Assembly (NCBI GenBank): GCA_958295785.1
Contig: OY282377.1
Span: forward strand, 1,502,394-1,566,393
Length of the DNA stretch: 64,000 bases
Direction of reading: 5' to 3'
Origin: an uncultured Latescibacterota bacterium
GTDB taxonomy: Bacteria; Latescibacterota; UBA2968
Of the stretch, positions 3,501 through 27,536 are shown piece by piece; position 1 is the stretch's first letter, and each line of letters begins with the position of its first letter. The notes under the pieces were generated by a model that worked only from the letters and a program-made list of their open reading frames with translations, was not told the DNA's origin and made no database searches. The position numbers and the translations under genes are program-made.

Positions 3501-5315
3501 GCATCTGGGTCATCGGATAACACGGTCAAGTTGTGGGATGTGGCAACGAGACGGAACATCGCCACGCTTGAGGGGCATAGGAATAATGTCACTTCAGTTT
3601 CGTTTTCGCCCGATGGTAGCACCCTCGCATCTGGGTCATGGGATTACGCGGTCAAGTTGTGGGATGTGGCAACGAGACGGAACATCGCCACGCTTGAGGG
3701 GCGTTCGCTTGGGGTCATTTCAGTTTCGTTTTCGCCCGATGGTTCAACGCTTGCATCAGGGTCATGGGATAACACGGTCAAACTGTGGGATGTGGCAACG
3801 AAGAGCTGGAACTTCTTTACACATACAGGGGTCGTCGAAAAAGTTTCGTTTTCGCCCGATGGTAGCACCCTCGCATCAGGGTCTTATGATGGCATCAAGT
3901 TGTGGGATGTGGCAACGAGACGGAACATCGCCACGCTCGAGGGGCGTTCGAGTGATGTCAATTCAGTTTCGTTTTCGCCCGATGGCAGCACCCTCGCATC
4001 AGGGTCTTATGATGGCAGGGTCAAGTTGTGGGATGTGGCAACGAGACAAAACATCGCCACGCTTGAGGGGCATTCGCTTTGGGTCATTTCAGTTTCGTTT
4101 TCGCCCGATGGCAGCACCCTCGCATCAGGGTCAAGAGATAACACGGTCAAGTTGTGGGATGTGGCAACGAGACAAAACATCGCCACGCTTGAGGGGCATA
4201 GGAATTATGTCTATTCAGTTTCGTTTTCGCCCGATGGTTCAACGCTCGCATCAGGGTCAAGTGATCGCACGGTCAAGTTGTGGGATGTGGCAACGAGACG
4301 GAACATCGCCACGCTTGAAGGGCATACGAGTGCTGTCAGTTCAGTTTCGTTTTCGCCCGATGGCAGCACCCTCGCATCAGGGTCATGGGATCACACGGTC
4401 AAGTTGTGGAATGTGGCAACGAGACAAAACATCGCCACGCTCAGGGGGCATAGGGGTTGGGTCGAATCAGTTTCGTTTTCGCCCGATGGTAGCACCCTCG
4501 CATCAGGGTCATGGGATTACGCGGTCAAGTTGTGGGATGTGGCAACGAGACGGAACATCGCCACGCTCAGGGGGCATAGGGGTATTGTCATTTCAGTTTC
4601 GTTTTCGCCCGATGGCAGCACCCTCGCATCAGGGGCAAGAGATAACACGGTTCTGCTGTGGGATATGTCGCCGTATATCACGCCGCTCACCTCCTTTTCA
4701 CTTTCTCTGGATGGAGATGGCGCAGCGGGCGATCAAGCGGTGACAACGCTCGATGTTTCGCCCGGGCCGGTTGCGACCATTCAGGTCTTTGGCAAAGGGA
4801 TTCGGCAGGCCACCGGCATTTCTGCGCGTTTTGAATACGATTCAGCGCAGGTGGCTTACGAGGGCTTTGACGCGGGCGGTCTTTTGCCCAATGTACAGGT
4901 GCTTGCCGTGTCTTCAACAAATCCAACGGCTGTCGAGATCGATCTCGTCTCTTTTGGCGGACAAGCCACAGCCGATAGGGGCCTGGTGGGCAATGTTCGC
5001 TTTCGCAGAATGAGCGCGTTTTCCGGCACAACGCTTCGGTTGGTGCGCGCCGAACTCGGCCGAGGAACGCAACGCGAGCGCGTGATGTTTGCCAATACCC
5101 ACATCACCTTACAACCCGCGGCCGCGGCACTGACGCCCGACTTCAATGGCGATGGCAGAGTTGATTCTGCCGACTTTGTGTTGTTCACCGCGCAATACGG
5201 ATTGCGTCAAGGCGACCCGGGATACGATGCGTGGTACGATCTGGATGGCGATGGCACCATTGGCTTCGGCGATTTCCTGATGTTCGGCAGTGCCTTTGGT
5301 CGGGAAGGGTCATAG
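531..5315 (+). CDS. Secreted metzincin-like / WD40-repeat mosaic protein with Big-1, cohesin-like and dockerin-like domains
   Basis: The product has 1594 residues. Residues 1-27 form a signal peptide. Residues about 60-260 resemble a zinc metalloprotease of the metzincin type: AHELGHTFDLGH (about 207-218) fits HExxHxxxxxH, although the usual Gly is Asp, and YIMSYG follows as a candidate Met-turn. Seven WD40 repeats follow (about 378-671), then a Big-1 (bacterial Ig-like) domain (about 681-780, SGEALTNPFVVEVRNKNGVG), 14 more WD40 repeats (about 792-1380), a cohesin-like domain (about 1386-1527), and two dockerin/EF-hand-type calcium loops (DFNGDGRVDSADF and DLDGDGTIGFGDF). The start is supported by AAAGGAGA eight bases upstream. 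It probably works outside the cell, as a scaffold or protease; its substrate is unknown. No terminator follows directly; a hairpin lies 480 bp downstream. Confidence 0.85.
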   Translation: MNRCTIPTKLTPCIFALLCLASIAQASSPPAEDNVHFCQVLDYEDMRARDSLYAARKQAFNLNVGEPRTVRMIYFLPNDRPFRQEVVDSMKTKIRQVQTFFRDQMRANGYGDMTFRFETDAGGNPMVHRVDGQYSDSHYLDDTVGTVRDEVEQAFDLSANVYLIVFDNSIDAIGFSDGTQAGGFAYSGGRNSGHAYVPGGFSFFIAAHELGHTFDLGHDWRDRRYIMSYGGADKERARLSACAAEFLAVHPYFNPDIPDEETPPPTLERISSLSYPPGSTSVPVQLKVHDPDGLHQVWLWVGGGLKMCQGLNGEQDAIVQFDYDGVIPSVEDPYGSGTSLSNPPVHNLYIRVVDTGGNVSSWVDGDFPLWNTENERNIIATLEGHTSDVGSVSFSPDGSTLASGSRDNTVKLWDVATRQNIATLEGHTSEVWSVSFSPDGSTLASGSHDNTVKLWDVATRQNIATLTGHRNNVISVSFSPDGSTLASGGGWGDNTVKLWDVATRQNIATLEATSPFGSVSFSPDGSTLASGSHDNTVKLWDVATRQNIATLEGHRNYVNSVSFSPDGSTLASGSSDRTVKLWDVATRQNIATLEGHTYWVTSVSFSPDGSTLASGSWDKTIKLWDMATRRNIETLYGKGEITSLAFSPDGNILASGSWKTSNDNAQVVLWDMQAILQSQPQALVKISGDNQQGVSGEALTNPFVVEVRNKNGVGLAGFPVRFTVTAGDGKLSGRFSGENATTDANGRAQSTLTLGDYSGTNTVEAASVAGLKVAFSAVGVGTPTPPIGSDYQTWHLPEGAIARLGKGTMREVAFSPDGSLLAVASSFGIWLYDAATSRELALLLGHTSDVNSVSFSPDGRILASGSYDHTVKLWDVATRRNIATLEAHRGSVGSVSFSPDGSTLASGGGWGDNTVKLWDVATRQNIATLTGHTSEVNSVSFSPDGSTLASGSYDHTVKLWDVATRRNIATLEGHTSEVNSVSFSPDGSTLASGSSDNTVKLWDVATRRNIATLEGHRNNVTSVSFSPDGSTLASGSWDYAVKLWDVATRRNIATLEGRSLGVISVSFSPDGSTLASGSWDNTVKLWDVATKSWNFFTHTGVVEKVSFSPDGSTLASGSYDGIKLWDVATRRNIATLEGRSSDVNSVSFSPDGSTLASGSYDGRVKLWDVATRQNIATLEGHSLWVISVSFSPDGSTLASGSRDNTVKLWDVATRQNIATLEGHRNYVYSVSFSPDGSTLASGSSDRTVKLWDVATRRNIATLEGHTSAVSSVSFSPDGSTLASGSWDHTVKLWNVATRQNIATLRGHRGWVESVSFSPDGSTLASGSWDYAVKLWDVATRRNIATLRGHRGIVISVSFSPDGSTLASGARDNTVLLWDMSPYITPLTSFSLSLDGDGAAGDQAVTTLDVSPGPVATIQVFGKGIRQATGISARFEYDSAQVAYEGFDAGGLLPNVQVLAVSSTNPTAVEIDLVSFGGQATADRGLVGNVRFRRMSAFSGTTLRLVRAELGRGTQRERVMFANTHITLQPAAAALTPDFNGDGRVDSADFVLFTAQYGLRQGDPGYDAWYDLDGDGTIGFGDFLMFGSAFGREGS
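1660..4665 (+). repeat. Near-identical 126-bp tandem coding repeats (WD40), blocks of 7 and 14
   Basis: The WD40 modules of the preceding gene are 42 residues (126 bp) each, and large parts are identical at nucleotide level, for example the core SVSFSPDGSTLASGS and the linker KLWDVATRQN. Block 1 (about 1660-2545) has 7 units, the last one diverged. Block 2 (about 2908-4670) has 14, the first diverged. Two units carry the same GGGWGDNTV insertion (about 1990 and 3250), which points to unit copying between blocks. Low divergence implies recent expansion or gene conversion. Confidence 0.9.
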
Positions 5316-5394: not shown

Positions 5395-5662
5395 TATTGT
5401 TTTGAAGCACTCTGCGCTGGTGGTCAAAAAAGCTGGCACAGCGCAAATCGCTTTTGTAGTAGTACGCCATGCGTTGGCCTGCAAGGTGGGTTGCAAGAGG
5501 GAGGTGGGTTGCGAGACGGCCTTGCGCGCTGTGCGTGATGGCTTTATCGGAGGGTCTTTTGGGATGGCATTTTTGCAATGGCTTCTCTGAATGATTGGGT
5601 AACGTCAAGGGAGATCGCTTGCTGGCAACATATCGCATCACATGAGGCCAAGTGAAAATTAA
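5395..5662 (+). repeat. Copy 1 (5'-truncated) of a ~460-bp dispersed element
   Basis: From GCTGGCACAGCGCAAATCGC to the ATATCGCATCACAT motif this segment closely matches two longer copies at 53788-54242 and 57214-57684. It lacks about the first 150-200 bp. There is no coding potential of its own; open frames across it are not conserved between copies. Confidence 0.8.
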
Positions 5663-5829: not shown

Positions 5830-6179
5830 ATTTTGCCCACTGGCGCCAGGTGTTTGAAGACAATAGAAAATACAATTACGACCTCTAAAGCCCGTCTTAT
5901 ATGGCTTGACGCTTATCCCCCCTTTGGTTATTCTATCTGTAACGCTATCAAAGCATGAGCGGCCGTTGTGGCAGTTGGGTGAAGAAGAAGTGAAAAATTG
6001 GAAAAAATCGGGTGATGAACCCCCCTTTGGTGTGTGGATCGGTTTGTGAGTGGGTTGTGGGCGTGAGTTGGGAGTAGGAGGGGTCGCTTTGTTGTGGAAG
6101 AAGAGAAACAAGCGCGTGCATGGGCATGGCCTGCGCGCATTGCAGATACGCCTGAGAATAGAGCGCGGGCTGTTCTTAG
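5830..6179. other. Gene-free stretch
   Basis: I see no gene here. Short open frames have no recognisable product or ribosome site. CCCCCCTTTGGT occurs twice (about 5920 and 6021). Confidence 0.5.
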
Positions 6180-6290
6180 AGTCCCTAACAGAAAGCGTTG
6201 CCATGGATTTGTGAGAGGCCGCCTTTGAGGCGTACCTGCGGGTGTTCACTCCTCTGTTTCAGACGCTTGATTTTTTTATGTTAGGGCTTC
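6180..6290 (+). mobile_element. 111-bp IS5-derived miniature element, copy A
   Basis: Left end AGTCCCTAACA and right end TGTTAGGGCTTC form an imperfect inverted repeat (CCCTAACA shared). The right half, GTTTCAGACGCTTGATT onward, matches the tail of the IS5-family element at the window's left edge. It is flanked by TTAG (6176-6179) and TAAG (6291-6294). There is no coding capacity, so it must move in trans. Confidence 0.8.
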
Positions 6291-6548
6291 TAAGAGGAGG
6301 ACGCCATGCCCCATTGCTCGTATTCCATGCGCTAGGACAAAAGACGATAGACTATCGCTTTCAACAAAATTTTTGGAGCAGACAGAGCGATTGTCGGGAT
6401 GGCTTCCTTCTATATACTAGTGAAAAAACGACCGAAAAATCGAAAATATACAGACTTTACTGCTTTTTTTTTTCTGACAGGCCCCTCCCGATCCTGCCCG
6501 TCAGAAAATCCAAAACGCAATGAATCTGACATCTACCATGCTATTTAG
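6291..6548. other. Spacer between two miniature elements
   Basis: A/T-richer spacer with no gene recognised. GAAAAAACGACCGAAAAATC and a poly-T tract (6463-6471) are present. Confidence 0.5.
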
Positions 6549-6659
6549 AGTCCCTAACAAAAAGCGTTGCCATGGCTTTGTGAGAGGCCGCCTTTGAGGC
6601 GTACCTGCGGGTGTTCACTCCTCTGTTTCAGACGCTTGATTTCTTTTTGTCAGGGCTTC
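6549..6659 (+). mobile_element. 111-bp IS5-derived miniature element, copy B
   Basis: Exactly the same length as copies A, C and D, with the same ends. It is flanked on both sides by TTAG (6545-6548 and 6660-6663), which is the best example of a 4-bp target duplication in the family. The right end has drifted (TGTCAGGGCTTC). Confidence 0.82.
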
Positions 6660-7008
6660 TTAGTATTACGCATAAGAACGCAGATGAAAGTCTGATCGCG
6701 GATGAAACGGATTGCGTGGATGAAAGGCAGGTTGGGGCGATGCCCCGTGCCCGGTCAAAGAGACGAGATGAAAGTTTAGCCACAAAAGGCACGAGCGGGG
6801 TACAACTGGCGACAGCCCGTTCAAAGGCACAAAAGGCGAATGTGTGTAGGGGCGATGCCCCCGTGCTCGCCCAAAGATACAAAAAGCAGTGGTCAGTCCC
6901 CCGTCCATCCACCACAAAAATCGAGACGTGAAAATGTAGGAGCGCGTTCCCCTTGATGGCGTCAGGCAAGGGCAGTTGTGTGTCCGTCAAAAAAGGCGAG
7001 GAGAAATC
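6660..7008. other. Intergenic stretch with two repeat-family members
   Basis: No gene is seen. It carries a GCGGATGAAACGGATTG phrase (about 6700), a degenerate palindrome (GGGGCGATGCCCC, 6734-6746), a GAGCGGGGTACAACTG phrase shared with about 53948 and (inverted) about 39860, and a good palindrome at 6846-6872. Confidence 0.6.
6846..6872 (+). repeat. GTAGGGGCG-type short palindromic repeat
   Basis: A consensus member: GTAGGGGCGATGCCCC followed by CGTGCTCGCCC. It lies between the miniature elements and the kinase gene. Confidence 0.8.
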
Positions 7009-8420: not shown

Positions 8421-9245
8421 TTGAAAAAATTGTCGTTGATTTTGTTCGCCGGGATTTTCTCAGTCGCATCTTGTGTCGATGCCCGGGATACGGGCATGTG
8501 GGCCGTTGGCGGTCTGGTGAGTTACCACCAGCCAACCGGCTCTTTGAACGGTTGGTACGCGGGCGATTTGAAGTTCGGCGTGAATGTGAGTTATGTGATT
8601 TCGCCACGCCTGACCACAGAGATTGAATACCACTACTCGAAGTTGGGCAGATCAAATCTTCCCGGTCGCACGTTCACATATCGCGAGGGGCGTCAGGTTC
8701 CAAGCCCGGATGCCGATTCGGAGATGACGTGGAACAGCGTGTCCTCGAATTGGCTGTGGTTTTTTCGGGAAAATGCCGAGACGATGTCCGACCGGAAATG
8801 GTCGCCGTATTTGGGCTTGGGGCTTGGGTTTTACAACTATAGCCATAAAGTCAGAGGTTTGATCTATCCATCCCAAGGCCGTATCCCCAATGAATTGAGC
8901 GGTTCGTCAACGGGCAATGTGCGCGTGGTTCTCGTGTATAATGGCAGCCCGGATCTGGATGCACAAACGATGACCGAAGAGCAAAGGAGCAACATTGGGC
9001 AGGTGGTCAACGGGGAGGTGTTGTTGTGGGGATTACCGCCTACGGAGGATACGCGCACCGCGTGGACCATTCCCATCAGTGCTGGTGTTGAAGGATCGAT
9101 GGGAGCGTCTTACGGGATTGATTTTCGCGTGCGTTACAATTTGATCTTCGGCGAGATCAATCCCTTGACAGCATGGGGATTGAATAAGGCGTTTCCGATG
9201 GGGACATTGGATGCCGGCGTGAGTTTCAAATACTATTTCGATTAA
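8421..9245 (+). CDS. Outer-membrane beta-barrel protein
   Basis: The 274-residue product starts at a TTG codon five bases after GGAGG. Residues 1-24 (LKKLSLILFAGIFSVASC) form a signal peptide; the VASC end could be a lipobox, but this is uncertain. The rest is alternating polar/hydrophobic sequence with aromatic girdles (VSYVISPRLTTEIEYHYSKLG, with YLGLGLGFYNYS and a C-terminal GVSFKYYFD ending in an aromatic plus Asp), typical of small OmpW/OmpA-like barrels. The function is probably structural or porin-like in the outer membrane. It is the first gene of a run with the TonB receptor 54 bp downstream. The exact family is not recognised. Confidence 0.75.
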   Translation: MKKLSLILFAGIFSVASCVDARDTGMWAVGGLVSYHQPTGSLNGWYAGDLKFGVNVSYVISPRLTTEIEYHYSKLGRSNLPGRTFTYREGRQVPSPDADSEMTWNSVSSNWLWFFRENAETMSDRKWSPYLGLGLGFYNYSHKVRGLIYPSQGRIPNELSGSSTGNVRVVLVYNGSPDLDAQTMTEEQRSNIGQVVNGEVLLWGLPPTEDTRTAWTIPISAGVEGSMGASYGIDFRVRYNLIFGEINPLTAWGLNKAFPMGTLDAGVSFKYYFD

Positions 9246-9299
9246 ATGAACCGCAGTGGTTGAATTTTCACTCACAACCTTTTTCATGGAGGGTCGTAT

Positions 9300-12200
9300 A
9301 TGGGCAAACGATTCTTGTTTTGTTGGATCTTGTTGGGCGCGTTGCTGATCTATACGGGATTGGCGCGGGCGGGCACGACGGGTAAAATCAGCGGGAAGGT
9401 CGCGGAGGTTACGGGTGACCCGCTTCCCGGCGCCAATGTGGTGATCGATATCGACGGCGTGAAACGCGCCGGGATCACCGACGAGAAGGGGGAATACTTC
9501 ATCATCAATATCCCGCCTGGGACTTACGATATCGAAACCGTGATGATGGGATATTCAAAGTCTGTTCGCACGGGCGTGGTGATCAATGTCGATCATACCA
9601 CGACGGTGAACTTTGAGATGCAGGAAGAAGCACTTCAACTCGGCGAGATGATCGTCGTTGCCGAGCGGCCGCCAGTGGAGCACGACAAGACCGAGAGCAA
9701 GTCGGTCATCACGGCAGAAGAGATCGAGGCGTTGCCCATTGTGCGCGAAATGTCGGATTTTGTGGAGTTGCAGGCGGGTGTGACGCCGGATGAAGAAGAG
9801 AGCGTTCGCGGCGGCAACTTCTGGGAAACGGCGTATATGGTGGATGGCGTGCGCGTGGTGAACAATGACGCGCGCGCCGGGTTTACGCGCTTTCAAGGCG
9901 TGAACACCAGCGCGGTGCAAGAACTGACCGTGTTGAGCGGCGGGATGAACGCGGAGTACGGCAATGCCGGGTCCGTGGTTTCGGTGGTGACCAAAGAAGG
10001 CGGTCAGAAATACACGGGCAGGGGCGAATACCGCATCACGCCGCCGGGGCAGAAGCACTGGGGCGCAAACGTGTACGAGGCGCCCGTGCATCGCGGCAGA
10101 ATGCAGTGGGGCAACAGCGAGTGGGAAAACTTGCAAGCGTGGTTCCCCGGCCCCGATGGGACTTTGGGGCACAGCAACGAGACGGGGGAAATTACCGATG
10201 CCCAATTTGCCGCTGACGACATGCAGCGCAAGGTTCACGTCCGCCAAGACTACACGGGCGTGTGGGGCGGGCGCGGCGAGGCCATGCTCGGCGGGCCGAT
10301 CAGGAGGCGGATGGGCTTCACGTTGACGTCTTCGATGAATCGCAATCCGTCATCATTGCCCGCGCCGACGGCGACCTCGCTGTTCAACAACCGCACGAAC
10401 TTGAAGTTGACCTATCGCCCGGGCAGCAATATCAAATTCAATTACGGCTCGCTGTTCAATCAGCGGGCGCGCTACAACGCGGGCGTTATTCGGCGCATCG
10501 AGCAGGGGTCGCGCAAGAATATGAACTCTTCGGGCCGCAACCTCTTTGTCCCCTCAGAATACTCGGGGGCGGGCAAGTTGCGGACGCGCGATTTTATGAA
10601 TTATGCGTCATTGACGCACACCTTGTCTGCGCGCACGTTTTACGAAATTCGCGTGTCGTATTCGCGCACATCCGAGGTGAATACGGAATTGCCGGTCAAC
10701 ACGGATCAGCCCTATGTGGAGCCGGGCATTGGCAGTGAATCGGGTTGGTACTACATCGGTCGCCCGGTGGTGAACTGGACGGATTCCAGGCGGGATCGCC
10801 TCCAGATCAAGTTCGACTATTCGAGCCAAGTGACCAAGGGGCACTTCATCAAAACCGGGTTGGACTTGTTGTTTTTCGACAACTGGGGCTTTTCCCGCAA
10901 CAAGAACGACTTTCGGGGCCTGATCGACAGGTATTACAGCCAGTTCAACAACCCCGGCGTGGGGGTGATGCCGCGCCAGTACTCGATCTACTTTCAAGAC
11001 AAGATGGAGTTCGAGGGCATTGTGGTGAACGTGGGGTTGCGCGGGTTGCGCTGGAGCCCGAACACCGAGATGCCGCAGGCGGAACATTTTATGCCGCTGT
11101 ACAAGTATCACGATCCCACAAAGGTCGAGAATATCCCGACCTATCGCCCGCAGGCCGTTCAGGTCTTGTCGCCGCGCGTGGGGGTGTCGCATCCGATTAC
11201 AGAGAGCAGCGCGATGCACTTCACGTTTGGCAAGTTCGAGCAGATCGAGCAGTTCTGGTGGATTTTCTCACACAGCTATCGCACGGAAGACGATTTTATT
11301 GATATGAACCAGAATGGGCGGATCGACGAGTCTGAGTTGTACAATTCGCAGGATGTCGTGGATGCCGGGCAGTGGGGATGGCCGAAGATCAGGCCATTGG
11401 TGACCACGAGCTTTGAGGTGGGTGCAGACTGGAACTTCATCACGGATTACACGGCGGGCCTGACCGCGTATTACAAGCAGCAGGTCAACCGGCGCAGCGG
11501 TGGCAATTACCAAGTTCAGTCTCAGGGGTTGCAGCACAACCGCTCGGTGGCGGCATCGGGGCAGACGAACAACCGGGACACGCGCGGCTTTGAGTTGTCG
11601 CTCAAGAAGAAATTCAACCACATGACCGCGTTCACGATTGCGTACAATGTGCAGTGGGTCGAAAATGGCAACTCGGGCGTGCGCGGCGCGCACTATATCA
11701 ATCCGGACAGGCTGGCGACCAAGAACCCGTCCAATTTTGGCAACTACGCGGGTTACATCGACAACGATGGCAATTTCCTGTCGCACTATTGGTATGAGTG
11801 GACCGCGGATTCCAATGGCGATGGCGATTTTGCCGGCGAAGAAGGCGTCGCTGGGCCGGGGATCGTCAATGGCAATGACACGGGCGAAGAGTTCCCCAGG
11901 CCAATGGACGGGATTACGCGCTTTCAACGGGCGCAAGCATTTGGCAGCCAAGCGCGCAATCAACTCGAACTGGTCGAAGATGGCGTCGGGCGCAACAACT
12001 GGTCGTTGGATCAAGAACACAGCTTGCTCAACTGGGATGGCAAAGGCGCCTCGACCTGGTTGCAGCGCAACAACCAGTCTCAAGAGTTTCGCCCGGCCAA
12101 TTTGAACCGCACCAACTTCGGCACGGTGACGTTTATGTTTTCGTCTCCCAAGGCGTTTGGCCCGCGCTTTGTGGGCTTTCGCCCCTTTGAGAATTTGCGT

Positions 12201-12578
12201 CTCAATGTGGTGTATCGCCTGTTCACCGGGCGCAGGTTTTTCTATTCGCCGCCGGAAAAGGGCGGTGAAGGGTTTTACAACGGGCCGATTCACACGCGCA
12301 CGGATCTCAATTTTGAGAAGACGTTTAATTTCAACAGGCGCGCGAGCATGACGATCTTTTTTGAATCGTTCAACCTGTTCAACCAGAAAGACCCGCACAT
12401 CAGCTATCGCGTGGATAATCAGTTGGTGGAAGTGGGCGCCGAGTACGTGGAATGGGGCGTGATTTACACGCCGTTGCCGGACAACCCCGAATACATCTCT
12501 TACGGCGATGTGGGGGATTATTTGCGATTCCAGGATTCGCCTCGCGAGTTCCACTTTGGTTTGCGGATGAAATTTTAG
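9300..12578 (+). CDS. TonB-dependent receptor with N-terminal carboxypeptidase-regulatory-like domain
   Basis: The 1092-residue product has a signal peptide (about 1-25), a carboxypeptidase-regulatory-like Ig domain (about 30-110, GKISGKVAEVTGDPLPGANV to TTTVNFEM), a plug domain (about 115-240, ITAEEIEALPIVREMSDFVE and YMVDGVRVVN) and a long barrel ending FHFGLRMKF with the terminal aromatic expected for assembly. Receptors of this type import or sense bulky substrates using TonB energy. No substrate is evident. GGAGGGTCGTAT precedes the ATG. The neighbours are the FlgD-tailed secreted protein and PorV-like gene, an arrangement seen in envelope operons of Bacteroidetes-like phyla. Note the DSNGDGDF-like segment near residue 840, possibly a calcium loop. 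Confidence 0.93.
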   Translation: MGKRFLFCWILLGALLIYTGLARAGTTGKISGKVAEVTGDPLPGANVVIDIDGVKRAGITDEKGEYFIINIPPGTYDIETVMMGYSKSVRTGVVINVDHTTTVNFEMQEEALQLGEMIVVAERPPVEHDKTESKSVITAEEIEALPIVREMSDFVELQAGVTPDEEESVRGGNFWETAYMVDGVRVVNNDARAGFTRFQGVNTSAVQELTVLSGGMNAEYGNAGSVVSVVTKEGGQKYTGRGEYRITPPGQKHWGANVYEAPVHRGRMQWGNSEWENLQAWFPGPDGTLGHSNETGEITDAQFAADDMQRKVHVRQDYTGVWGGRGEAMLGGPIRRRMGFTLTSSMNRNPSSLPAPTATSLFNNRTNLKLTYRPGSNIKFNYGSLFNQRARYNAGVIRRIEQGSRKNMNSSGRNLFVPSEYSGAGKLRTRDFMNYASLTHTLSARTFYEIRVSYSRTSEVNTELPVNTDQPYVEPGIGSESGWYYIGRPVVNWTDSRRDRLQIKFDYSSQVTKGHFIKTGLDLLFFDNWGFSRNKNDFRGLIDRYYSQFNNPGVGVMPRQYSIYFQDKMEFEGIVVNVGLRGLRWSPNTEMPQAEHFMPLYKYHDPTKVENIPTYRPQAVQVLSPRVGVSHPITESSAMHFTFGKFEQIEQFWWIFSHSYRTEDDFIDMNQNGRIDESELYNSQDVVDAGQWGWPKIRPLVTTSFEVGADWNFITDYTAGLTAYYKQQVNRRSGGNYQVQSQGLQHNRSVAASGQTNNRDTRGFELSLKKKFNHMTAFTIAYNVQWVENGNSGVRGAHYINPDRLATKNPSNFGNYAGYIDNDGNFLSHYWYEWTADSNGDGDFAGEEGVAGPGIVNGNDTGEEFPRPMDGITRFQRAQAFGSQARNQLELVEDGVGRNNWSLDQEHSLLNWDGKGASTWLQRNNQSQEFRPANLNRTNFGTVTFMFSSPKAFGPRFVGFRPFENLRLNVVYRLFTGRRFFYSPPEKGGEGFYNGPIHTRTDLNFEKTFNFNRRASMTIFFESFNLFNQKDPHISYRVDNQLVEVGAEYVEWGVIYTPLPDNPEYISYGDVGDYLRFQDSPREFHFGLRMKF

Positions 12579-12611
12579 GCATCAGGCCCTATTTAATGGA
12601 GGAGCGAACTT

Positions 12612-15356
12612 ATGCAACGGATTTGGAAGCGATTTGTACGGGTGTTGCTCGCGTTTGTGGTGCTGTGGGGGGCGTCTGAATTGTGGATGGTGATCGATGC
12701 CGATGCACAGCAGCGCACGCGCCGCCGCACGACCAATCGCGCGAAACTCTGGTTGTCGATGCGGAACAATGGCACGCTGGGGCACTCGCTGGATGGCGGC
12801 GATATTTTCGGCCCTGAAGTGGGCATGTCCTATCCCGGGCGGTGGACCTCCACGTATCGGGCGGGCATTGTGAACCGGGTGAATCGGCAGGACAATTCGC
12901 GGGGCAATGGCATGTGGGTGATGGCGCGCACAGACGACGGGCGCAAGTTCGTCTCGCTGGGCGGGCCGCGCAAGCCATCGGCAGATATTTTCCCAATTCA
13001 GCACCATCCGCGCAACAATGTCGAGAGCATCGCGCCGATTTGGCGGTCCGTGTGGCGGTCTGGCGGTCGTCCGTTTAATCTGTTCAATTACGGGCAAAAT
13101 GCCGCGCTTTACTGGCCGCGCATGCGGAATATGAAGATCAAGAGCCACTTTGTGAATGGCGAGGCCGTGGAATATCAGTTCGATGTCAGCACTTATGGGG
13201 GCTTGGGGCAACGGGGTTTTCCACCGGGTCCCGACAAAGTGGAACCGATGGATTATTACAACTGGGGCTTTGGGTACTATCCCCTGAACAAAGAGGCGTT
13301 TAGAGAGATGTTGGTGTCGTCGTATAACACGCCGCGTGCGGGGTTGAACCAGATGCGGTCGAATGGGGTCAGTCCCAATAATCTGCGGTTGTCGCCCGAG
13401 TTGTTCAGCGAGAATTTGCTGGTGACGGGTTGGGCACAGGCGTCGGGCATTACAGTAAAGCGATTGGTGCATGCCTATTCCACGCCGGGCACGGATAACG
13501 ATGTGATGATTTCTGTGCCGACGCCCAATGGCGGCCAGTCGTCGATTGTGACGCGGGGCGACTACGATGACTTTTTGATTACGGAGATCGAGTTTTGGAA
13601 CAATGGCGATACCGATGGCGACGGCCAAGCCAATGCCGGATATCCCAAGCAACTCGACGAAGTTTATATCGTGGTCAAAAACGGCTTCATCGCCAGCAAG
13701 GCCGGCGCAGAGTGGGTGCCTGCTGGCGGGTCGAACTCGAATGCGTGGGATTTTGTTCAGCCCTCCACGCAAGACGATTACTGGCGTTATACGCAGGCGG
13801 AAAATTACGACCATCCGGAATACGCCCGCAATTATCGAGGCGCGCCGATGCACCTGACGTATGTGTATGACGGCGATGCGGTTGCGCGCCTGTGGAATGA
13901 CTTGGGCGAACCCTATACCCGTTCTCGCGCACAGCACCAATACGTTTCGACCTCCAATATCTTGGATGGCACGCTGTTGTCGCCGCAGTATATCGGGATG
14001 TTGCCCATAGCCACGGGCAAGGCGGATCATCCGTTTAACGCGCTGGACAAAGGTCAGGGGTACGCGTTGCCGCAAGGCCCGCAACCCCATGCGGTGTTCC
14101 GGTGGCGCATGTATTCTTCGGCACTGGGCGATGACCCGCACGGGGGCACGCACGGCGATAGCCAGTTGTTCGATTATTACAGCGATGCCACCGGCGTGCT
14201 CAGCGACGACGAGACCGACCGCTTGGTGCAACGCCACGACAATGACGAATTGGGCGCGTGGGTCGATGCACAGGTTTATGGCCCTTACACGCTGGGGCCT
14301 GGGGCCAAGGCCAAAGTGGTGGTTGCGTACGTGGCGGGAATGGCGTCCAACTCGGCCAAGTATCGCGCAGACACCGAGAACTATGCGCGTCCCTACGAGT
14401 GGAACTGGCAACAACAGAGCTTGGTCGATGAATTGGAATTGGGGCTCGAAGCGATTTACGCGCACGCCAATGAAGCGCAAAAACTGTACGACCTGGGATT
14501 TGACGGGGTCAATCAACCGCCCGATGTGAAGGTCAATGGGGTCACGAATTTGAACTCCAATATCGAACTGAATTGGTCGGGCATTGCCGATACGGCGATT
14601 GATCCGGACTTGGGGCGGCCCGATGTGGTGGGGTATCGCATCTATCGGTCCGATTTTATGCGGGGTGGGCCATGGAGGTTGCTGGCGACTGTTCCCAAGG
14701 CCGTGGGCCCCGAGGGCGAACGGCAGTTGCCCGCGGGCGCGCCTGCTGGCGTTACTTTTCTCAATGAGCCGTGGGCCGAAGGTCAGGAGCAACCCGCAGA
14801 GGCCGAAGTCGATGGCCCCTTCCGCTGGGGTACGTACACGTTTATCGATCCGGAGCCGGACCCGGGTTTTATTCACCACTATTCGATCCGCGCTTACGAC
14901 GAACAGGGTTTGGAAACCGGGCACTCGGACGAGCGCAATCAGTACTTGTTCCCGGCCGATGGCATTGTGCCGCGGTTGACATCTGCCTTGCTCAACGATC
15001 AAAACGAAGACATGGCGTTGCCCATTCGCGTGGTGCCCAATCCGTGGGTGCAGGGCCGGGACGAGCACAGCTATGGCGCGCCGCGCATTCGTTGGATCAA
15101 TGTGCCGAGCCGGTGTACGCTGTATATTTACACCCTCAGCGGGGACTTGGCATGGCGTCAGACCTTTGATACGCTCGACCCGCAGCGGGGCAACCCGGTG
15201 GCGCGCGCAGAGATCGAATGGGATACGCATACAGTGGGCTTGAATGCCAATACGCGCGGTCGTCTCAATGCCGGTACTTATATTTGGGCGATAGAGTCGC
15301 ACCATCCCGCGAGTATGGGGCAGATCCAAAAGGGTCTGTTTGTCATTATCAATTAA
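12612..15356 (+). CDS. Large secreted protein with fibronectin-like module and FlgD-like C-terminal domain
   Basis: The 914-residue product has an N-terminal hydrophobic signal (about 10-35). The central part is not recognised. Near 640-700 a fibronectin-type segment appears (NLNSNIELNWSGIADTA, then YRIYRSDFMRGGPW). The last 110 residues look like a FlgD-like/type IX-sorting-style domain: LPIRVVPNPWVQG, CTLYIYTLSGDLAWR and AGTYIWAIE. In Bacteroidetes such ends direct export and surface attachment, and the next gene is PorV-like, so surface delivery by a related route is a reasonable inference. GGAGGAGCG precedes the start. It probably shares a transcript with the receptor, 33 bp upstream. Confidence 0.72.
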   Translation: MQRIWKRFVRVLLAFVVLWGASELWMVIDADAQQRTRRRTTNRAKLWLSMRNNGTLGHSLDGGDIFGPEVGMSYPGRWTSTYRAGIVNRVNRQDNSRGNGMWVMARTDDGRKFVSLGGPRKPSADIFPIQHHPRNNVESIAPIWRSVWRSGGRPFNLFNYGQNAALYWPRMRNMKIKSHFVNGEAVEYQFDVSTYGGLGQRGFPPGPDKVEPMDYYNWGFGYYPLNKEAFREMLVSSYNTPRAGLNQMRSNGVSPNNLRLSPELFSENLLVTGWAQASGITVKRLVHAYSTPGTDNDVMISVPTPNGGQSSIVTRGDYDDFLITEIEFWNNGDTDGDGQANAGYPKQLDEVYIVVKNGFIASKAGAEWVPAGGSNSNAWDFVQPSTQDDYWRYTQAENYDHPEYARNYRGAPMHLTYVYDGDAVARLWNDLGEPYTRSRAQHQYVSTSNILDGTLLSPQYIGMLPIATGKADHPFNALDKGQGYALPQGPQPHAVFRWRMYSSALGDDPHGGTHGDSQLFDYYSDATGVLSDDETDRLVQRHDNDELGAWVDAQVYGPYTLGPGAKAKVVVAYVAGMASNSAKYRADTENYARPYEWNWQQQSLVDELELGLEAIYAHANEAQKLYDLGFDGVNQPPDVKVNGVTNLNSNIELNWSGIADTAIDPDLGRPDVVGYRIYRSDFMRGGPWRLLATVPKAVGPEGERQLPAGAPAGVTFLNEPWAEGQEQPAEAEVDGPFRWGTYTFIDPEPDPGFIHHYSIRAYDEQGLETGHSDERNQYLFPADGIVPRLTSALLNDQNEDMALPIRVVPNPWVQGRDEHSYGAPRIRWINVPSRCTLYIYTLSGDLAWRQTFDTLDPQRGNPVARAEIEWDTHTVGLNANTRGRLNAGTYIWAIESHHPASMGQIQKGLFVIIN

Positions 15357-15377
15357 TCAATAAGCGAGGAGCATAGA

Positions 15378-16403
15378 ATGAAACGATTGATTTGGATGGC
15401 GGCTATCGCGCTGTTTCTCGGCCCTTACAACAGCACTGTGGCACAGGAAACCCAGCCCCTCACGAGTGAGACCGAGGACCTCGAGCCCGTGTTTGGGGAC
15501 GGGCATTATCGCTCGGAAGGCGATAGGGGCAACCGCATTGCGCGCAGTGGGTTCACGCTTTTGAAATTGTCTGCATCGGCGCGCTTGGCGGGCATGGCCG
15601 ATGCCAATGTGGGCACGTCGCGCGATATTCACGCGATTTTCCAAAATGCCGCCGGGTTGGTGCATATTGACCGCATCGGGTATGTGGCGTCTTACAACCA
15701 GTGGTTGGTGGGCACGCGGATGGGGGCCGCGGGTTTGGCCTATCGCATTCCCGTGGGGGTTGTGGGCCTCTCTATTCGCTCGTTCACCTATCCGGATGTG
15801 GAAGAGACCACGCCCTTGCAACCCGATGGCACGGGGAATAATATCGAGCTCGGGGATTTTGCTGTCGGGTTGTCATTTGCCAAGCAGTTGACCGACAAGT
15901 TTTCCCTGGGGTTTCGCTTGCAATACGCGCGGTCGCAACTTCACGATGTCACCAGTGTGAGTTCCACGACATTTGACATTGGCACCATTTTTTACACGGG
16001 CTTTAGGAGTTTGCGCGTGGGCATGACCATCAGCAACTTGGGCGGCAATGTGGAAGTGTTGACCGAAGACTATCGCCTGCCGTTTTTCTACAACTTGGCC
16101 CTTGCGATGGAATTGGTCGGGAAGGAAGGCGATCCGATGTACCTGACCGCTGCGTATGAGCATGTGTTCTACCGCGATTACGGGGAGCGCGATCACATCG
16201 GCGGCGAGTTGTGGTTGCAGAATATTTTGGCCCTTCGCGCCGGTTACAAGTTCCGCTACGATGTGGAGAGTTGGAGCGTGGGCGCGGGCGTGAATTTGAA
16301 TGTGAGCGAAGACCGCGAGTTGAGCGTGGATGTTTCGTATAGCGACATCGGCGGAAAGATCCAAGAGCGACCGTTGCGTTTGACCCTTTCGGGGACGTTC
16401 TAA
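15378..16403 (+). CDS. PorV/PorQ-family outer-membrane protein
   Basis: The 341-residue product has a signal peptide (1-22) and a FadL-like barrel. The N-terminal SGFTLLKLSASARLAGMADA followed by DIHAIFQNAAGL is the hallmark of the PorV/PorQ (UPF0164) family. In the type IX secretion system PorV shuttles exported cargo to the attachment complex. No other type IX core genes are in the window, so a full system is not shown. It follows the FlgD-tailed protein by 21 bp with its own GCGAGGAG site. A G+C-rich inverted sequence (GGCCCAAGGGCC) lies just after the stop. Confidence 0.82.
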   Translation: MKRLIWMAAIALFLGPYNSTVAQETQPLTSETEDLEPVFGDGHYRSEGDRGNRIARSGFTLLKLSASARLAGMADANVGTSRDIHAIFQNAAGLVHIDRIGYVASYNQWLVGTRMGAAGLAYRIPVGVVGLSIRSFTYPDVEETTPLQPDGTGNNIELGDFAVGLSFAKQLTDKFSLGFRLQYARSQLHDVTSVSSTTFDIGTIFYTGFRSLRVGMTISNLGGNVEVLTEDYRLPFFYNLALAMELVGKEGDPMYLTAAYEHVFYRDYGERDHIGGELWLQNILALRAGYKFRYDVESWSVGAGVNLNVSEDRELSVDVSYSDIGGKIQERPLRLTLSGTF

Positions 16404-16490
16404 ATCAGGGGTCCGTCCTCGCCCACCCCCACGGCCCAAGGGCCGGGGGAGGGGACATAAACCACTGAAAGCCAAACAGGAGGAATTACA

Positions 16491-17813
16491 ATGCGGAAGG
16501 TTTTATTTTTGGGTCTCATGGGTCTGTTGGGCGCGATGGGGTGTAGCCGCGACATTCCGGTTCAGCCTGCCGAAGAGTGGCGCGGGAGCTATCGGTTGAT
16601 CTCTGGCACGCGGGATGGCAGCGCGATTGACGTTGCCAGTCCGCCTCATGGCACGCCTCGGCATGTGATTTTCACGGCGGCGGCCTCGGATTACGGCACG
16701 CTTGTGTTTGTGTACAATCCACCGTTGACCGCGCCGCCCATGGCGTCGGTGACATATCAGAAGACCGTGCGGCACTATTCGCGCACGGCACAGGGCACGC
16801 GCGACCAACTTCGCATTGAATATGCCCAAAACAATGTGGAGCGCATCCGCTTGGCCTTGGGCGCGTTTTATCTTTGGGAGGCAGGGCCTAGGTTGCCGCT
16901 GGTCGGTGAAAATGGCAATAATTTGGGCCCTCTGACGCGGATTAGGCCGCCAAATGCGTCCGAGGCACTGAACGAGCCGAATACGTTGGTGCGCCTGCTG
17001 ACCGACGCCGATACCAATGGCAATGTGACGGTGTTGGGCAATGGGAATGTTCGCATTACCATAACCAACGCTCAAAGGCCGGACAATCAGTCGTTTGAAA
17101 ATCGCCACAACCGAACCGCGCTTTATTTTCAAAGCCCGTGGCCGTGGGAAGATTCTCGTCCGTATCGCATGACGATGTGGGTGCAAGATGGGCAAGGCGT
17201 GCGCTATGCCGTGTACGCGCCGCCGGCTGAGGTCGTTGCGGAATTGGAGCCTCCGGCATCGCCGCCTTCTGGCACCTGGCCGTTGATAGACGCCCACCTC
17301 AATGGCACCTGGATGGATCCCGAGGCGCCCTTTCCGAGCATTCCATCCGCGCTCGACTTGCAGTGGACGCCCGTTTTGGAGCGGCGCAGCCCTCGCCACC
17401 GCAAGCCCCCTGGCCATGTGTCTGCCGCTGGCGCGCTCGATCCCATGATCGAGAATGGCGTGATCATCGAAGATGGGTTGGTGGAGATCGCGTTTAGCAC
17501 GCCGCTCGAGTTTGCCACGCATGCAGATGAAGCCCGGTTTTTCAACCGGCGTGCGGGGTACGTGATTCAAAATGGGTTGCCCGTGCTGACGGGTACGCTG
17601 CGCGGCGGGTCGCCGGATGGGATGAGCCTGACTTATGTGGAAGCGGACGATGTCTCGTTTAGCAAAGCGGGCGATATTTTGACGGTCAATCTGACGCAGG
17701 GTGGCGGGTCTTATACTTTGGAGTATCAGCAAGCCCCGCTGAATCCCCAAGAACTGGCGGGCTTTGGGGTTGACTCGATTGTCGTGAAGCCCATTCCGGC
17801 GGATTTGTTTTAA
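16491..17813 (+). CDS. Putative lipoprotein of unknown function
   Basis: The 440-residue product begins with a lipoprotein-type signal peptide: LGLMGLLGAMGCS gives a lipobox with Cys18. The rest shows no family I can name. It is rich in short beta-type segments and proline-containing loops (ASPPHGTPRHVIFTA, PPASPPSGTWPLID). AGGAGGAA lies six bases before the ATG. It sits last in the receptor/PorV run (87 bp gap holding a G+C hairpin), so it is plausibly an envelope-anchored partner of that system. It could also be independent. Confidence 0.7.
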   Translation: MRKVLFLGLMGLLGAMGCSRDIPVQPAEEWRGSYRLISGTRDGSAIDVASPPHGTPRHVIFTAAASDYGTLVFVYNPPLTAPPMASVTYQKTVRHYSRTAQGTRDQLRIEYAQNNVERIRLALGAFYLWEAGPRLPLVGENGNNLGPLTRIRPPNASEALNEPNTLVRLLTDADTNGNVTVLGNGNVRITITNAQRPDNQSFENRHNRTALYFQSPWPWEDSRPYRMTMWVQDGQGVRYAVYAPPAEVVAELEPPASPPSGTWPLIDAHLNGTWMDPEAPFPSIPSALDLQWTPVLERRSPRHRKPPGHVSAAGALDPMIENGVIIEDGLVEIAFSTPLEFATHADEARFFNRRAGYVIQNGLPVLTGTLRGGSPDGMSLTYVEADDVSFSKAGDILTVNLTQGGGSYTLEYQQAPLNPQELAGFGVDSIVVKPIPADLF

Positions 17814-17905
17814 AGGGTATTGCACGATAAGGTGTTATTGTGTATATTAAAAATGGTAATCACTTAAGGCCGTTTCCTTCGGGAAACTTTTCGAGGAGGT
17901 TCGCT

Positions 17906-19708
17906 ATGGTGTTTCGCGTTGCACTGGCTGTGTTGTGCTGTGGTGCTTTGCTTGCAGGGGCGGCTGATGCCGGCAAATTGAAGTTGCCCTATGCGGAGGC
18001 GGGATTGAGCAAAGAGCAAGCCGCGGCGTATTTGTTGGAACGCTTTGCCTTTGGCCCTCGGCCGGGCGAAGTGGAGAAAGTGGCCAAGATGGGGCCCGAG
18101 AAGTGGTTGGCGCAGCAGTTGGCGGGCAATTTGCCGGACGAAGAGCTCGACAAACGCCTGAAAGCATTTCCCGCGCTGGAAATGACGCTGACGAAAATGA
18201 ACGCGGTCTATGTGCAAAATGGGCAGCTCCGCAATAGGATGAAAAGAGAAGGGGTGCTGGATCCCGCGAACACGCCGCGCAAAGAGATGAATGAAAAGAT
18301 GCAGGCGTATCGCGAGAAACACGGGTTGCGCCCTTATGGCATGATTTCCAATCAGGAACTCCGCGGGCAAAAAGTGATGCGGGCGGTTTACAGCGAAAAT
18401 CAACTCGCCGAAGTGCTCACGGGTTTCTGGTTTAACCACTTCAATGTGACGACGCGCGATGGCGGCGCGCGGCCTCGCGTGCTTTCCTATGAACGCGATG
18501 CGATTCGCCCAAATGTGCTGGGCGAGTTTCGCACCATTTTGGGCACCACGGCAAAACATCCCGCGATGTTGTACTATCTGGACAACGCGCAGTCGCGCAT
18601 GGCGCCCCCTCCGCCAAAGAATCAGCCCAAAGTGGCAAAATCCGAAGGCGATGGCGAGATGGGCATGGATGGCGGGATGGGCATGGATGGCGGGATGGAC
18701 GGTGGGATGATGGCTGGCGAGAGCATGGCAAAGGCCCCCGCGCCTGCACAGGCGAAAGCCCCTGCGAGACCCAAACGCAAATACGGGTTGAACGAGAACT
18801 ACGCCCGCGAATTGATGGAGTTGCACACGCTGGGCGTGGATGGCGGCTATACGCAGAAAGATGTCACCGAAGTTGCGCGCGTGTTGACCGGCTGGGGCAC
18901 AATGCCCTACAGGAATCAGCGCAAAAATGTCGAGAAGCAAATTGCAAACGGGAATAAAAACCTCATTCGAGACGGGGAATTTCTGTTTCGCAAGGCGTGG
19001 CACGATTCAAAATCCAAAGTGGTCTTGGGTGAAGAATTTCCGGCAGGGGGTGGCATAGAAGAAGGCGAGCGCGTCTTGGATATGCTGGTCGCACACCCGT
19101 CAACAGCGCGTTTTATTTCCACCAAGTTGGCGCGGCGATTTGTCAACGATGAACCGCCAGCGGGTTTGGTCGATGCGATGGCCGAAACATTTTCCCAAAC
19201 CAATGGGGATTTGGCCGCGGTGATGGCCACTTTGGCGCAATCGCGGGCATTTTGGGCCGAGGCCAAAACGCGCAGCAAGATGAAATCGCCGTTTGAATTG
19301 GCGGTATCTTCTCTCCGCGCATTGGAAGCCGATGTGAAAAATCCACAGCCGCTGATGCGCTGGTTTGATCGCATGGGCGAACCGCTTTACGGCTATGTGC
19401 CGCCCACGGGTTATCCCGACTATGCCGAGTCGTGGACAAATTCGGGCACGCTGGTCGCGCGCATGAACTTTGGCATTCACCTGGCCACGGGGCGCATTAA
19501 CGGGATCGTGCTGAAGCGATTGCCCAAAGATAGAGATTGGGATTCCACGGAACGGGCCTTGGCGGTTTACGGCAAGTTGTTGTTGCCGGCGCAAGATACG
19601 AGTGCCATTGCCGCCGAGATCAAAGGCGTGATCCCCAAAGACGCGGCACGCAAAGATATTCAGGTGGTCAGTATGTTGATCGGGTCGCCGGAATTTCAAT
19701 ACCGATAG
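17906..19708 (+). CDS. DUF1800 family protein
   Basis: The 600-residue product has a signal peptide (MVFRVALAVLCCGALLAGAADA). LLERFAFGPRPGEVEKVAKMG, LTGFWFNHFNV, YYLDNAQSR, NENYARELMELHTLGVDGGY and VARVLTGW are the DUF1800 signature blocks. The role of the family is unknown; it nearly always sits beside a DUF1501 gene, as here. A low-complexity Met/Gly/Asp insert followed by Ala/Pro/Lys (residues about 248-292) interrupts the domain. I chose ATG 17906 because GAGGAGG lies seven bases upstream, against an in-frame ATG 66 bp earlier without such a site. Confidence 0.92.
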   Translation: MVFRVALAVLCCGALLAGAADAGKLKLPYAEAGLSKEQAAAYLLERFAFGPRPGEVEKVAKMGPEKWLAQQLAGNLPDEELDKRLKAFPALEMTLTKMNAVYVQNGQLRNRMKREGVLDPANTPRKEMNEKMQAYREKHGLRPYGMISNQELRGQKVMRAVYSENQLAEVLTGFWFNHFNVTTRDGGARPRVLSYERDAIRPNVLGEFRTILGTTAKHPAMLYYLDNAQSRMAPPPPKNQPKVAKSEGDGEMGMDGGMGMDGGMDGGMMAGESMAKAPAPAQAKAPARPKRKYGLNENYARELMELHTLGVDGGYTQKDVTEVARVLTGWGTMPYRNQRKNVEKQIANGNKNLIRDGEFLFRKAWHDSKSKVVLGEEFPAGGGIEEGERVLDMLVAHPSTARFISTKLARRFVNDEPPAGLVDAMAETFSQTNGDLAAVMATLAQSRAFWAEAKTRSKMKSPFELAVSSLRALEADVKNPQPLMRWFDRMGEPLYGYVPPTGYPDYAESWTNSGTLVARMNFGIHLATGRINGIVLKRLPKDRDWDSTERALAVYGKLLLPAQDTSAIAAEIKGVIPKDAARKDIQVVSMLIGSPEFQYR

Positions 19709-19735: not shown

Positions 19736-21022
19736 ATGGAATGGACGCGAAGGGCATTTATGAAGGGCAGTGGGCTGGCGTTGTTTTCCATGTCGTTTGG
19801 CGGTACGCCGCTGTTTTTGAGCCGCGCTGCCGATGCTGCAAATAATCCGCTGGCGCACAGCCGCCGCAAAGTGCTGGTGACGATTTTTCAGCGCGGCGCG
19901 ATGGATGGTTTGATGGCGGTGACGCCGTTTAACGATCCCGCGCTCGCCGAGGCGCGCCCCAATTTGTTTATGCGCTTGAACGATGCGAAAAATGAGCTGA
20001 CGGATTTGGATGGTCGCTTTGCACTTCATCCCGCGTTTGCAGATTTGGCCCCTCTGTACAAGGAGGGGCGCATGGCCGTTGTTCACGGCGTTGGCTCTCC
20101 CAATAAGACGCGGTCGCATTTTGATGCCCAAGATTATATGGAGACGGGCACGCCGGGGATGAAAGGCACGCGGTCGGGGTGGCTCAACCGCGCAGTGGGC
20201 CTGCTCGGGCACGAGGGCACGCCGTTTCGATCTGTGGCGTTGACCAAAGCATTGCCGCGCGCATTTTACGGCGATATGCCCGCACTCGCGGTGGATGATT
20301 TGCGATCCTTTGGCATTCAGATGCCGGGCAATCACCAGGTTGCCGAACAGCTCGAGGAAGGGTTTGAGCACATGTACGCCCGAAGTGCCAAACGGCTGGT
20401 TCAGCGGGTGAGCAATGAAAGTTTTGAAGCCATCGAGATGTTGGAAAAAACGAATTTGAGAAATTACAAACCCGCCAATGGCGCGAAGTATCCCACGACG
20501 GCAACGGGCAATCTTACGGCATTGGGCCGCAGGATGCAGCAAATTGCCATGCTCATTAAGTCCGATGTGGGCCTCGAGGTTGCCTTCACCGAGACGGGCG
20601 GCTGGGATACGCATGTGCAACAGGGCACGACAACGGGTTCTTTCTCGAATAAGGCCACGGAACTGTCGCAGGCCATTGCGGCTTTCTGGACGGATCTGGG
20701 CACGCATCAAGACGATGTGGTGCTGATGACCATGACCGAATTTGGCCGCACAGTACACCAGAACGGTTCGCTCGGAACGGATCACGGTCGCGGGTCGTGT
20801 TTGTTTGTGCTGGGCAATGAAGTGGACGGTGGCAAAGTCCACGGCACAGTGCCAGAAAAACTGGTGAAAGACGCGCTCGAAGATCGGCGCGATTTGCCCG
20901 TGACGACAGATTTCCGATCTGTGTTTGCCGATGTGGCTGGAAAGCATCTGCATATTGATCGGGCAAAGGATAGCGCGATGTTCCCCGGTTGGAAGGGCGA
21001 GCGGTTTAAGGTGATGGCGTAA
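19736..21022 (+). CDS. DUF1501 family protein (Tat-exported, alkaline-phosphatase-like fold)
   Basis: The 428-residue product starts with a Tat signal: TRRAFMKGSGLALFSMSFGG. LVTIFQRGAMDGLMAVTP, GGWDTHVQQ and MTEFGRTVHQNGSLGTDHGR are typical DUF1501 blocks (sulfatase/phosphatase-like superfamily). Tat export implies folding, perhaps with a metal, before crossing the inner membrane. AAAGGAGG precedes the ATG, 27 bp after the DUF1800 stop. The two are predicted to be co-transcribed and to work as a pair; the reaction is unknown. A hairpin terminator follows. Confidence 0.92.
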   Translation: MEWTRRAFMKGSGLALFSMSFGGTPLFLSRAADAANNPLAHSRRKVLVTIFQRGAMDGLMAVTPFNDPALAEARPNLFMRLNDAKNELTDLDGRFALHPAFADLAPLYKEGRMAVVHGVGSPNKTRSHFDAQDYMETGTPGMKGTRSGWLNRAVGLLGHEGTPFRSVALTKALPRAFYGDMPALAVDDLRSFGIQMPGNHQVAEQLEEGFEHMYARSAKRLVQRVSNESFEAIEMLEKTNLRNYKPANGAKYPTTATGNLTALGRRMQQIAMLIKSDVGLEVAFTETGGWDTHVQQGTTTGSFSNKATELSQAIAAFWTDLGTHQDDVVLMTMTEFGRTVHQNGSLGTDHGRGSCLFVLGNEVDGGKVHGTVPEKLVKDALEDRRDLPVTTDFRSVFADVAGKHLHIDRAKDSAMFPGWKGERFKVMA

Positions 21023-22616: not shown

Positions 22617-22639
22617 GGTGACGCTCCGAAAGGGTTGAT

Positions 22640-23105
22640 ATGTCACTTTTAACAGTTGAAGATAAAGCCTTTTTGCGGAAAATGGGTATCTCATTCGGCG
22701 CGATGTGTTGCGCCCGGATCAGATTCAGCAGGCAGTGGATGCGCTTTGGCATTATATTGACGCGGATCGCGGGGATCCATCGACATGGATCCATGCCGGG
22801 CCGCGAAGCCCGGATTGTGGTGCTCATCCAGCGATTCGCGCCACGCTTTACGAAACAGCTTTGTTTGCGATGTGCCGCGAACTCGCCGGCGATTTGTGTA
22901 TCCGAGTGGCAGTGATGAGTGGGCGATCAAGTTGCCACATTTGAGCCACCGCACGTTCAAGGTGGTGATTTACGGGTACAGTTACAACTGGATTCGGAAT
23001 GGGTTTTATCTAAAAAATTTAGATGATGACGCGATTGCGGATTTGACCGATATTGAAATGCAACTTATAGCCGTTCATCACCAAAAAAGATGGGATCAGG
23101 TCTCC
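22640..23105 (+). pseudogene. Phytanoyl-CoA dioxygenase-like gene, frameshifted and internally deleted
   Basis: Pieces of a PhyH protein appear in different frames: an N-terminal piece (EDKAFFAENGYLIRRDVL, after allowing one missing base at about 22672, then DQIQQAVDALWHYIDADRGD) and a C-terminal piece (FKVVIYGYSYNWIRNGF, about 22962-23005), which resembles the end of the intact PhyH at 25033. The central part with the HxD iron ligands is absent. The length is about half that of the neighbours. It is a decayed paralogue in a cluster that keeps two intact copies. Confidence 0.75.
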
Positions 23106-23164
23106 CCGTCGCGGGGAGGGGGCATCATTCGTTTTCAAACAGATTTTAAGAATAGGAGGTCGCT

Positions 23165-24088: not shown

Positions 24089-24100
24089 AAGGAGGTCGCT

Positions 24101-27518: not shown

Positions 27519-27536
27519 GGATGCGATAGATGGATC

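Follow-up and report, generated by a model that had tools for sequence, protein, structure and literature searches.

The window analysed here, a stretch of 64,000 nucleotides that forms part of one 5.66-Mb contig of an uncultured Latescibacterota bacterium, carries five consecutive open reading frames at 8421-17813, i.e. genes for a small outer-membrane β-barrel protein (OMP), a TonB receptor, a secreted cargo protein (SEC), a PorV-family outer-membrane protein and a lipoprotein (Table 1). All five are present as described in a first-pass annotation, which had taken them to be one envelope operon. The reading frames are real and tightly spaced, but the operon is longer than five genes, in that genes for DUF1800 and DUF1501 proteins follow the lipoprotein gene after gaps of 26 and 27 bases (the preceding gaps, from gene 1 on, being 54, 33, 21 and 87 bases), so that it extends to 21022. 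Scans for promoters and terminators gave no useful signal (11 found vs 8.1 expected; 24 found vs 17.5 expected). A 915-residue antisense open reading frame (window 12582-15329, minus strand) was considered as a gene and rejected; it is broken in all seven orthologues, where the longest open runs are 235-445 codons, and the third-position G+C of the SEC gene is higher in this genome (0.70) than in the orthologues (0.59-0.61), so that it is best regarded as an accident of composition.

Table 1. Features of the window operon, with the corresponding genes of Rhodothermus marinus
Feature	Position	Strand	Description
Small outer-membrane β-barrel protein (OMP), cassette gene 1	8421-9245	+	274 aa; paralogues first in five other cassettes
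TonB receptor, N-terminal CarboxypepD_reg and plug	9300-12578	+	1092 aa; Pfam domains
SEC, secreted cargo protein	12612-15356	+	914 aa; C-terminal T9SS-like tail
SEC C-terminal tail, putative T9SS type A/FlgD tail variant	15009-15353	+	profile-profile comparison
PorV-family outer-membrane protein, proposed dedicated shuttle	15378-16403	+	341 aa; NF033709 over cut-off
Lipoprotein, accessory to window cassette	16491-17813	+	440 aa; lipobox-like cysteine
DUF1800 protein, same operon	17840-19708	+	PF08811 2.3e-129
DUF1501 protein, same operon	19736-21022	+	PF07394 5.7e-26; Tat-like N-terminus by eye
Rhodothermus marinus DSM 4252 pRMAR01	RMAR_RS14120 to RS14110		TonB receptor, 1132-aa hypothetical protein and PorV/PorQ protein, consecutive

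Elsewhere in the window, 531-5315 encodes a 1594-residue protein with ~20 WD40 repeats, and 21117-30391, after the operon, encodes two sulfatases, an esterase-like hydrolase and two PhyH proteins, possibly a catabolic neighbourhood. At 31716-36000 a DDE_3 transposase-like reading frame, together with low G+C (0.43 at 34001-36000), suggests a mobile or acquired piece. At least two families of interspersed repeats, of ~120 and ~230 bases and 81-97% identical, are present in the 17 stretches (332,516 bases) examined; they occur in the window at 5432-5662, 6175-6295, 6545-6663, 32492-32612, 33937-34057, 54003-54232 and 57445-57674, and also in the loci designated L026, L028, L030, L034, L036, L105 and L106.

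The OMP gene starts with TTG, preceded by a good ribosome-binding site. Its product has no Pfam match, and its NCBIfam matches are weak, the best, to PorG, being far under cut-off (0.016); three of six barrel paralogues match OMP_b-brl (best 2.2e-9). Lipidation of this protein was considered and rejected, as its cysteine is missing from six orthologues. The TonB receptor has CarboxypepD_reg (4.8e-15) and Plug (5.6e-8, over cut-off) domains, and its profile matches to solved receptors span the plug and the N-terminal domain; its match to TIGR04056 is weak (5.6e-12; 44.8 bits, cut-off 368).

The view of the first-pass annotation that the secreted protein and the lipoprotein lie outside known families is borne out, neither having a Pfam or NCBIfam match up to E=1. 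Structure prediction from shallow, close alignments gave unusable models for both (mean pLDDT 26.6 for SEC and 31.6 for the lipoprotein). The lipobox-like cysteine of the lipoprotein is kept in five orthologues. The lipoprotein is found in 11 of 64 genomes of the phylum, i.e. ten of the genus and one relative, and is an add-on of these, outside the four-gene unit that recurs (see below). The DUF1800 gene is syntenic in relatives, and the DUF1501 protein is 85-87% identical in the four related loci that reach that far.

SEC appears, by eye, to have a signal-peptide-like N-terminus, followed by a body, a tentatively fibronectin-III-like region (residues ~636-785) and a T9SS-like tail (~801-914). 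The fibronectin-like reading comes from sequence and from a non-significant PDB match (E 0.19), which is the best obtained with the SEC profile, so that no relative of SEC was found among solved structures. Mean identity between cassettes is 0.27-0.34 along the body, rising to 0.38 for the fibronectin-like region and 0.40 for the tail; a division into variable head and conserved body was considered, and the identity profile along SEC speaks against it, the 121-314 stretch being mainly gappy.

The assignment of an FlgD-type tail to SEC stands at the level of profiles, but not for the window protein by itself, which matches none of the tail families and does not reach the curated type A sorting-domain model. 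Among nine SEC paralogues, four match TIGR04183 (best 0.0091), three CHU_C (6.8e-5) and five PorZ (6.5e-4). A profile of nine SEC tails aligned with canonical tails of the same genome in a single hhalign comparison (probability 97%, E 4.8e-11). Among solved structures, the canonical tails compared have matches to PorU and FlgD and a weak one (0.0073) to a T9SS sorting domain; with the SEC tails nothing below E 1.8 was found there. The SEC tail is homologous to type A/FlgD tails at profile level only, yet separable from them by two profiles, which were built from nine of the 30 SEC-type tails and seven of the ten canonical tails considered below.

The two tail classes differ in their gene neighbours. 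A PorV gene lies within 600 bases downstream, on the same strand, of 28 of the 30 genes with SEC-type tails (exceptions L045, L091), and a TonB gene within 600 bases upstream of 28 (exceptions L045, in which the TonB gene is downstream of SEC, and L093, which is cut by a contig end). Of canonical-tail genes, two of ten have an adjacent PorV gene, none a TonB gene upstream and one a TonB gene downstream. Two SEC loci, L034 and L035, were found via PorV; the others were found via SEC similarity, so that for these PorV adjacency was not a condition of selection. According to the available part of PMC10994853, a near-invariant lysine close to the C-terminus of type A tails contacts PorV. In the corresponding column, as placed by our own alignment, window SEC has leucine, and lysine is present in ten of 30 SEC-type tails; canonical tails have lysine in four of ten and arginine in another four, so that the column splits the classes only as basic or not, and the difference between them is a hint only. 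Loss of the lysine was also considered as tied to barrel-containing cassettes; this is true of the ten cassettes of this genome, but five barrel-containing cassettes elsewhere keep the lysine, and the idea was rejected.

The PorV-family protein of the window matches Pfam PorV (5.2e-7) and is over cut-off for the PorV/PorQ family model NF033709 (7e-46; 157.3 bits, cut-off 90); a profile of 12 PorV paralogues retrieves the solved PorV 6h3i_F (3.5e-36). With a PorV profile, matches are obtained in every one of the 64 phylum genomes, 15 of them in this genome and 12-31 in the ten genomes of the same genus; ten cassette PorV genes are among the matches listed of the 15. Of two further PorV-family genes, located outside cassettes, that of L033 is nearest the canonical PorV model and adjoins an M6-like T9SS protein, and that of L036 is nearest PorV2.

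As to the type IX core genes which the first-pass annotation expected elsewhere in the genome, SprA is present (TIGR04189 7.6e-187; 623.7 bits, cut-off 200). PF14349 is over cut-off in this genome and silent in 14 control genomes, and SprA_N occurs in 60 of the 64 phylum genomes. A PorU-like sortase is present, with a C25 peptidase match over cut-off (3.0e-71) and an NF033707 match below it (1.1e-93; 314.6 bits, cut-off 420), as are several PorV-family proteins. The PorM (GldM) and PorN (GldN) profiles have no match in the genome at E<=1, though no control genome exceeds either cut-off, so that these two profiles lack a working control. The type IX reading was to fall if core genes and conserved synteny were both lacking; SprA, a PorU-like gene, PorV genes and syntenic relatives are found, and it does not. 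At E<=0.001 the genome is without a SusD_RagB (PF07980) match, and neither SEC nor the lipoprotein has a SusD match in Pfam or NCBIfam; across the phylum, 13 of 64 genomes have a single SusD_RagB match, and nine of the 13 belong to the genus.

Cassettes were located by SEC and PorV searches of the genome, followed by inspection of the stretches around the matches. The order OMP-TonB-SEC-PorV occurs in six copies (window, L026, L027, L028, L030, L031), and TonB-SEC-PorV without a barrel gene in a further four (L029, L032, L034, L035), L029 having the most divergent cargo (103 bits vs the SEC profile). The recurring unit is thus of four genes (OMP, TonB receptor, SEC and PorV), not five: the proposal of a unit with its own receptor agrees with the fixed TonB-cargo-PorV order, but the lipoprotein, included in that proposal, is not part of what recurs.

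Conserved synteny in relatives was likewise anticipated, and is found both for all five genes, in named relatives, and for the four-gene order, in other genera. SEC relatives 85-88% identical occur at seven loci from six named metagenome-assembled genomes; in five of the seven the five-gene order is intact, at 71-89% identity (TonB 88-89%, SEC 85-88%, PorV 79-80%, OMP 75-77%, lipoprotein 71-75%), which is far beyond chance. Of the remaining two, the L041 contig ends inside PorV, and L045 (8998-15292) holds a SEC copy outside a cassette, 85% identical to window SEC, after which come genes for a different TonB receptor and for a DUF4249 lipoprotein, with no PorV near; a private shuttle is thus not obligatory. 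More widely, SEC relatives are present in 21 of 64 phylum genomes (E<=1e-10). Eighteen SEC loci were chosen by hand, two from G038, of the same genus, and the other 16 from ten genomes of other genera; these belong to the same family or to a second family of the order, except for one genome, which represents a different order of the class. All four genes are present in order on one strand in 14 of these; L101 has no recognisable OMP, L091 has neither OMP nor PorV, and contig ends truncate L090 and L093.

Over 24 cassettes (20 for OMP), several of them near-duplicates in sister genomes, the pairwise distances of the four proteins are correlated with one another (0.92-0.96; Mantel p=0.0005, 2000 permutations; L029 and L090 left out by hand, and L091 and L093 lacking a gene). 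For the nine cassettes of this genome used by themselves, the correlations are 0.81 for TonB-SEC, 0.89 for TonB-PorV and 0.85 for SEC-PorV (p 0.0015-0.0055). The correlated distances suggest that cassettes duplicate and diverge as units; linkage or joint inheritance alone, without contact between the proteins, could explain them.

DUF6785 is a family of polytopic membrane proteins, in which a simple count gives 8-12 hydrophobic segments. Its genes lie in the stretch examined around four of the ten own cassettes, four of the 18 others and none of seven non-cassette loci, a difference that is not significant (~0.13, by our own reckoning). DUF6785/DUF6784 proteins are encoded near L026, L031, L032, L034, L088, L090, L103 and L104, up to ~5 kb from PorV, whereas no DUF6785 gene was found beside the window cassette or at the seven loci of named relatives. 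One cassette is flanked by a sodium:solute symporter and one by a sulfate permease. Such neighbours would fit import; they are neither constant nor significant.

When one SEC paralogue was used as query in a translated search of 72,556 plasmid records, the only match, to the tail, was on plasmid pRMAR01 of Rhodothermus marinus, and two PorV queries of these records also matched pRMAR01 only. There, as in the cassettes, a receptor, a cargo with a SEC-type tail and a PorV/PorQ protein are encoded in the same order (Table 1), with profile scores of 476 bits for TonB, 128 bits in three pieces for SEC and 244 bits for PorV. The SEC-type tail is found in the middle (cargo) protein only. Unlike the cassettes, the pRMAR01 locus has no OMP match among six genes, and is flanked by two genes for proteins with canonical tails, an FG-GAP and a peptidoglycan-recognition protein; its cargo is annotated as hypothetical only. 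The R. marinus copy brings the question into a cultured, non-pathogenic and genetically tractable organism, where it is open to direct test.

We consider the chances to be about even that the window locus is one copy of a multi-copy, SusCD-like TonB uptake gate, with a T9SS-exported surface partner and a dedicated PorV shuttle, and that it is not itself a SusCD. Under this proposal SEC would be made with a Sec signal, cross the outer membrane through SprA by virtue of its C-terminal T9SS-like tail, and be picked up by the PorV-family protein, the product of the next gene downstream, acting as a dedicated shuttle. At the surface, SEC may dock on the TonB receptor, whose gene immediately precedes its own, and capture a ligand, which the receptor would then import with TonB energy, the small barrel protein being a probable accessory. 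Separate cassettes would serve separate ligands, as proposed by analogy with the SusCD pairs of Bacteroidota, the surface partner being T9SS-exported instead of a lipoprotein; in the window copy the lipoprotein, DUF1800 and DUF1501 proteins may be ligand-specific additions. No permease or enzyme consistently accompanies the cassettes, so that it is the kind of receptor that points to import as the direction.

Three other accounts are possible, of which the one that survives best, though we think it rather unlikely, is that SEC, exported by the T9SS with PorV, acts at the surface as an adhesin or coat protein, with the TonB receptor and barrel merely co-regulated for growth on the same material and not in a complex with it. 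Those type B substrates of Flavobacterium johnsoniae that have cognate shuttles are adhesins, known or predicted (PMC12618676, in the part available), and the fibronectin-like region of SEC, together with calcium-loop-like motifs in our own reading of several paralogues, would suit such a role, as would the presence of L045 SEC beside a different receptor. The constancy of the upstream TonB gene in SEC loci, its co-divergence with SEC and PorV, and the recurrence of the gene order in another phylum argue against this account.

There is only a small probability that the PorV-family protein is a small-molecule channel, SEC reaching the surface via the general PorV of the genome. Such a role might be read from the weak match of the PorV profile to FadL-type channels, e.g. 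TodX (1.8e-4), and from the score of the window protein under the PorV equivalog cut-off (NF033710, 68 of 250 bits); the L033 PorV, beside the M6-like protein, is nearer to that model (157 bits, also below cut-off). Against this, PorV is encoded beside nearly all SEC genes and is not beside eight of the ten canonical-tail genes. Least probable of all is that the TonB receptor works outward like Myxococcus Oar, secreting SEC with TonB energy for PorV to receive at the surface, for although PopC secretion requires Oar (PMC6434023, in the part available), Oar-type receptors have the same N-terminal domain architecture, and another energy source would be welcome with PorM and PorN undetected, SprA is present, SEC has a T9SS-like tail, and SEC apparently has a signal peptide (by eye), which PopC, in the same source, does not.

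With the dedicated-shuttle uptake gate as the preferred reading, a broader proposal is tentative, and in our estimate falls somewhat short of even odds: that T9SS export signals may include a third class, the SEC-type tails, every one with its own PorV-type shuttle, and that this class builds SusCD-like TonB gates with a T9SS-exported surface partner, replaces SusCD in part of the Latescibacterota and reaches at least the Rhodothermota. If true, the type IX system furnishes the surface half of nutrient uptake gates outside the Bacteroidota, and the rule of one PorV for all type A tails does not extend to their relatives.

A literature search, with scant reach into subscription papers and none into bioRxiv preprints, found no description of such a cassette; comparison can be made with three known systems. 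SusC/SusD of Bacteroidota likewise consists of a multi-copy TonB receptor with CarboxypepD_reg and a co-encoded partner; by contrast, here there is no SusD family match, and the partner is T9SS-tailed and accompanied by PorV and a small barrel. The Oar/PopC system is similar in receptor domain architecture, and differs, on the evidence of the available part of PMC6434023, in the cargo lacking a signal peptide and in M. xanthus lacking a T9SS. According to the part of PMC12618676 available, F. johnsoniae has nine cargo-shuttle gene pairs in one genome, comprising type B tails with cognate PorP/SprF, and type A tails are all recognised by one PorV shuttle. As in the type B pairs, the cargo gene in the cassettes adjoins its own outer-membrane shuttle gene; unlike them, the shuttle here is of the PorV family, the tail is of the type A/FlgD family and a TonB receptor belongs to the unit. 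The parts are of known kinds, and what is new is their combination: the cargo bears a tail related to type A and has a PorV of its own, and the pair is linked to a TonB receptor.
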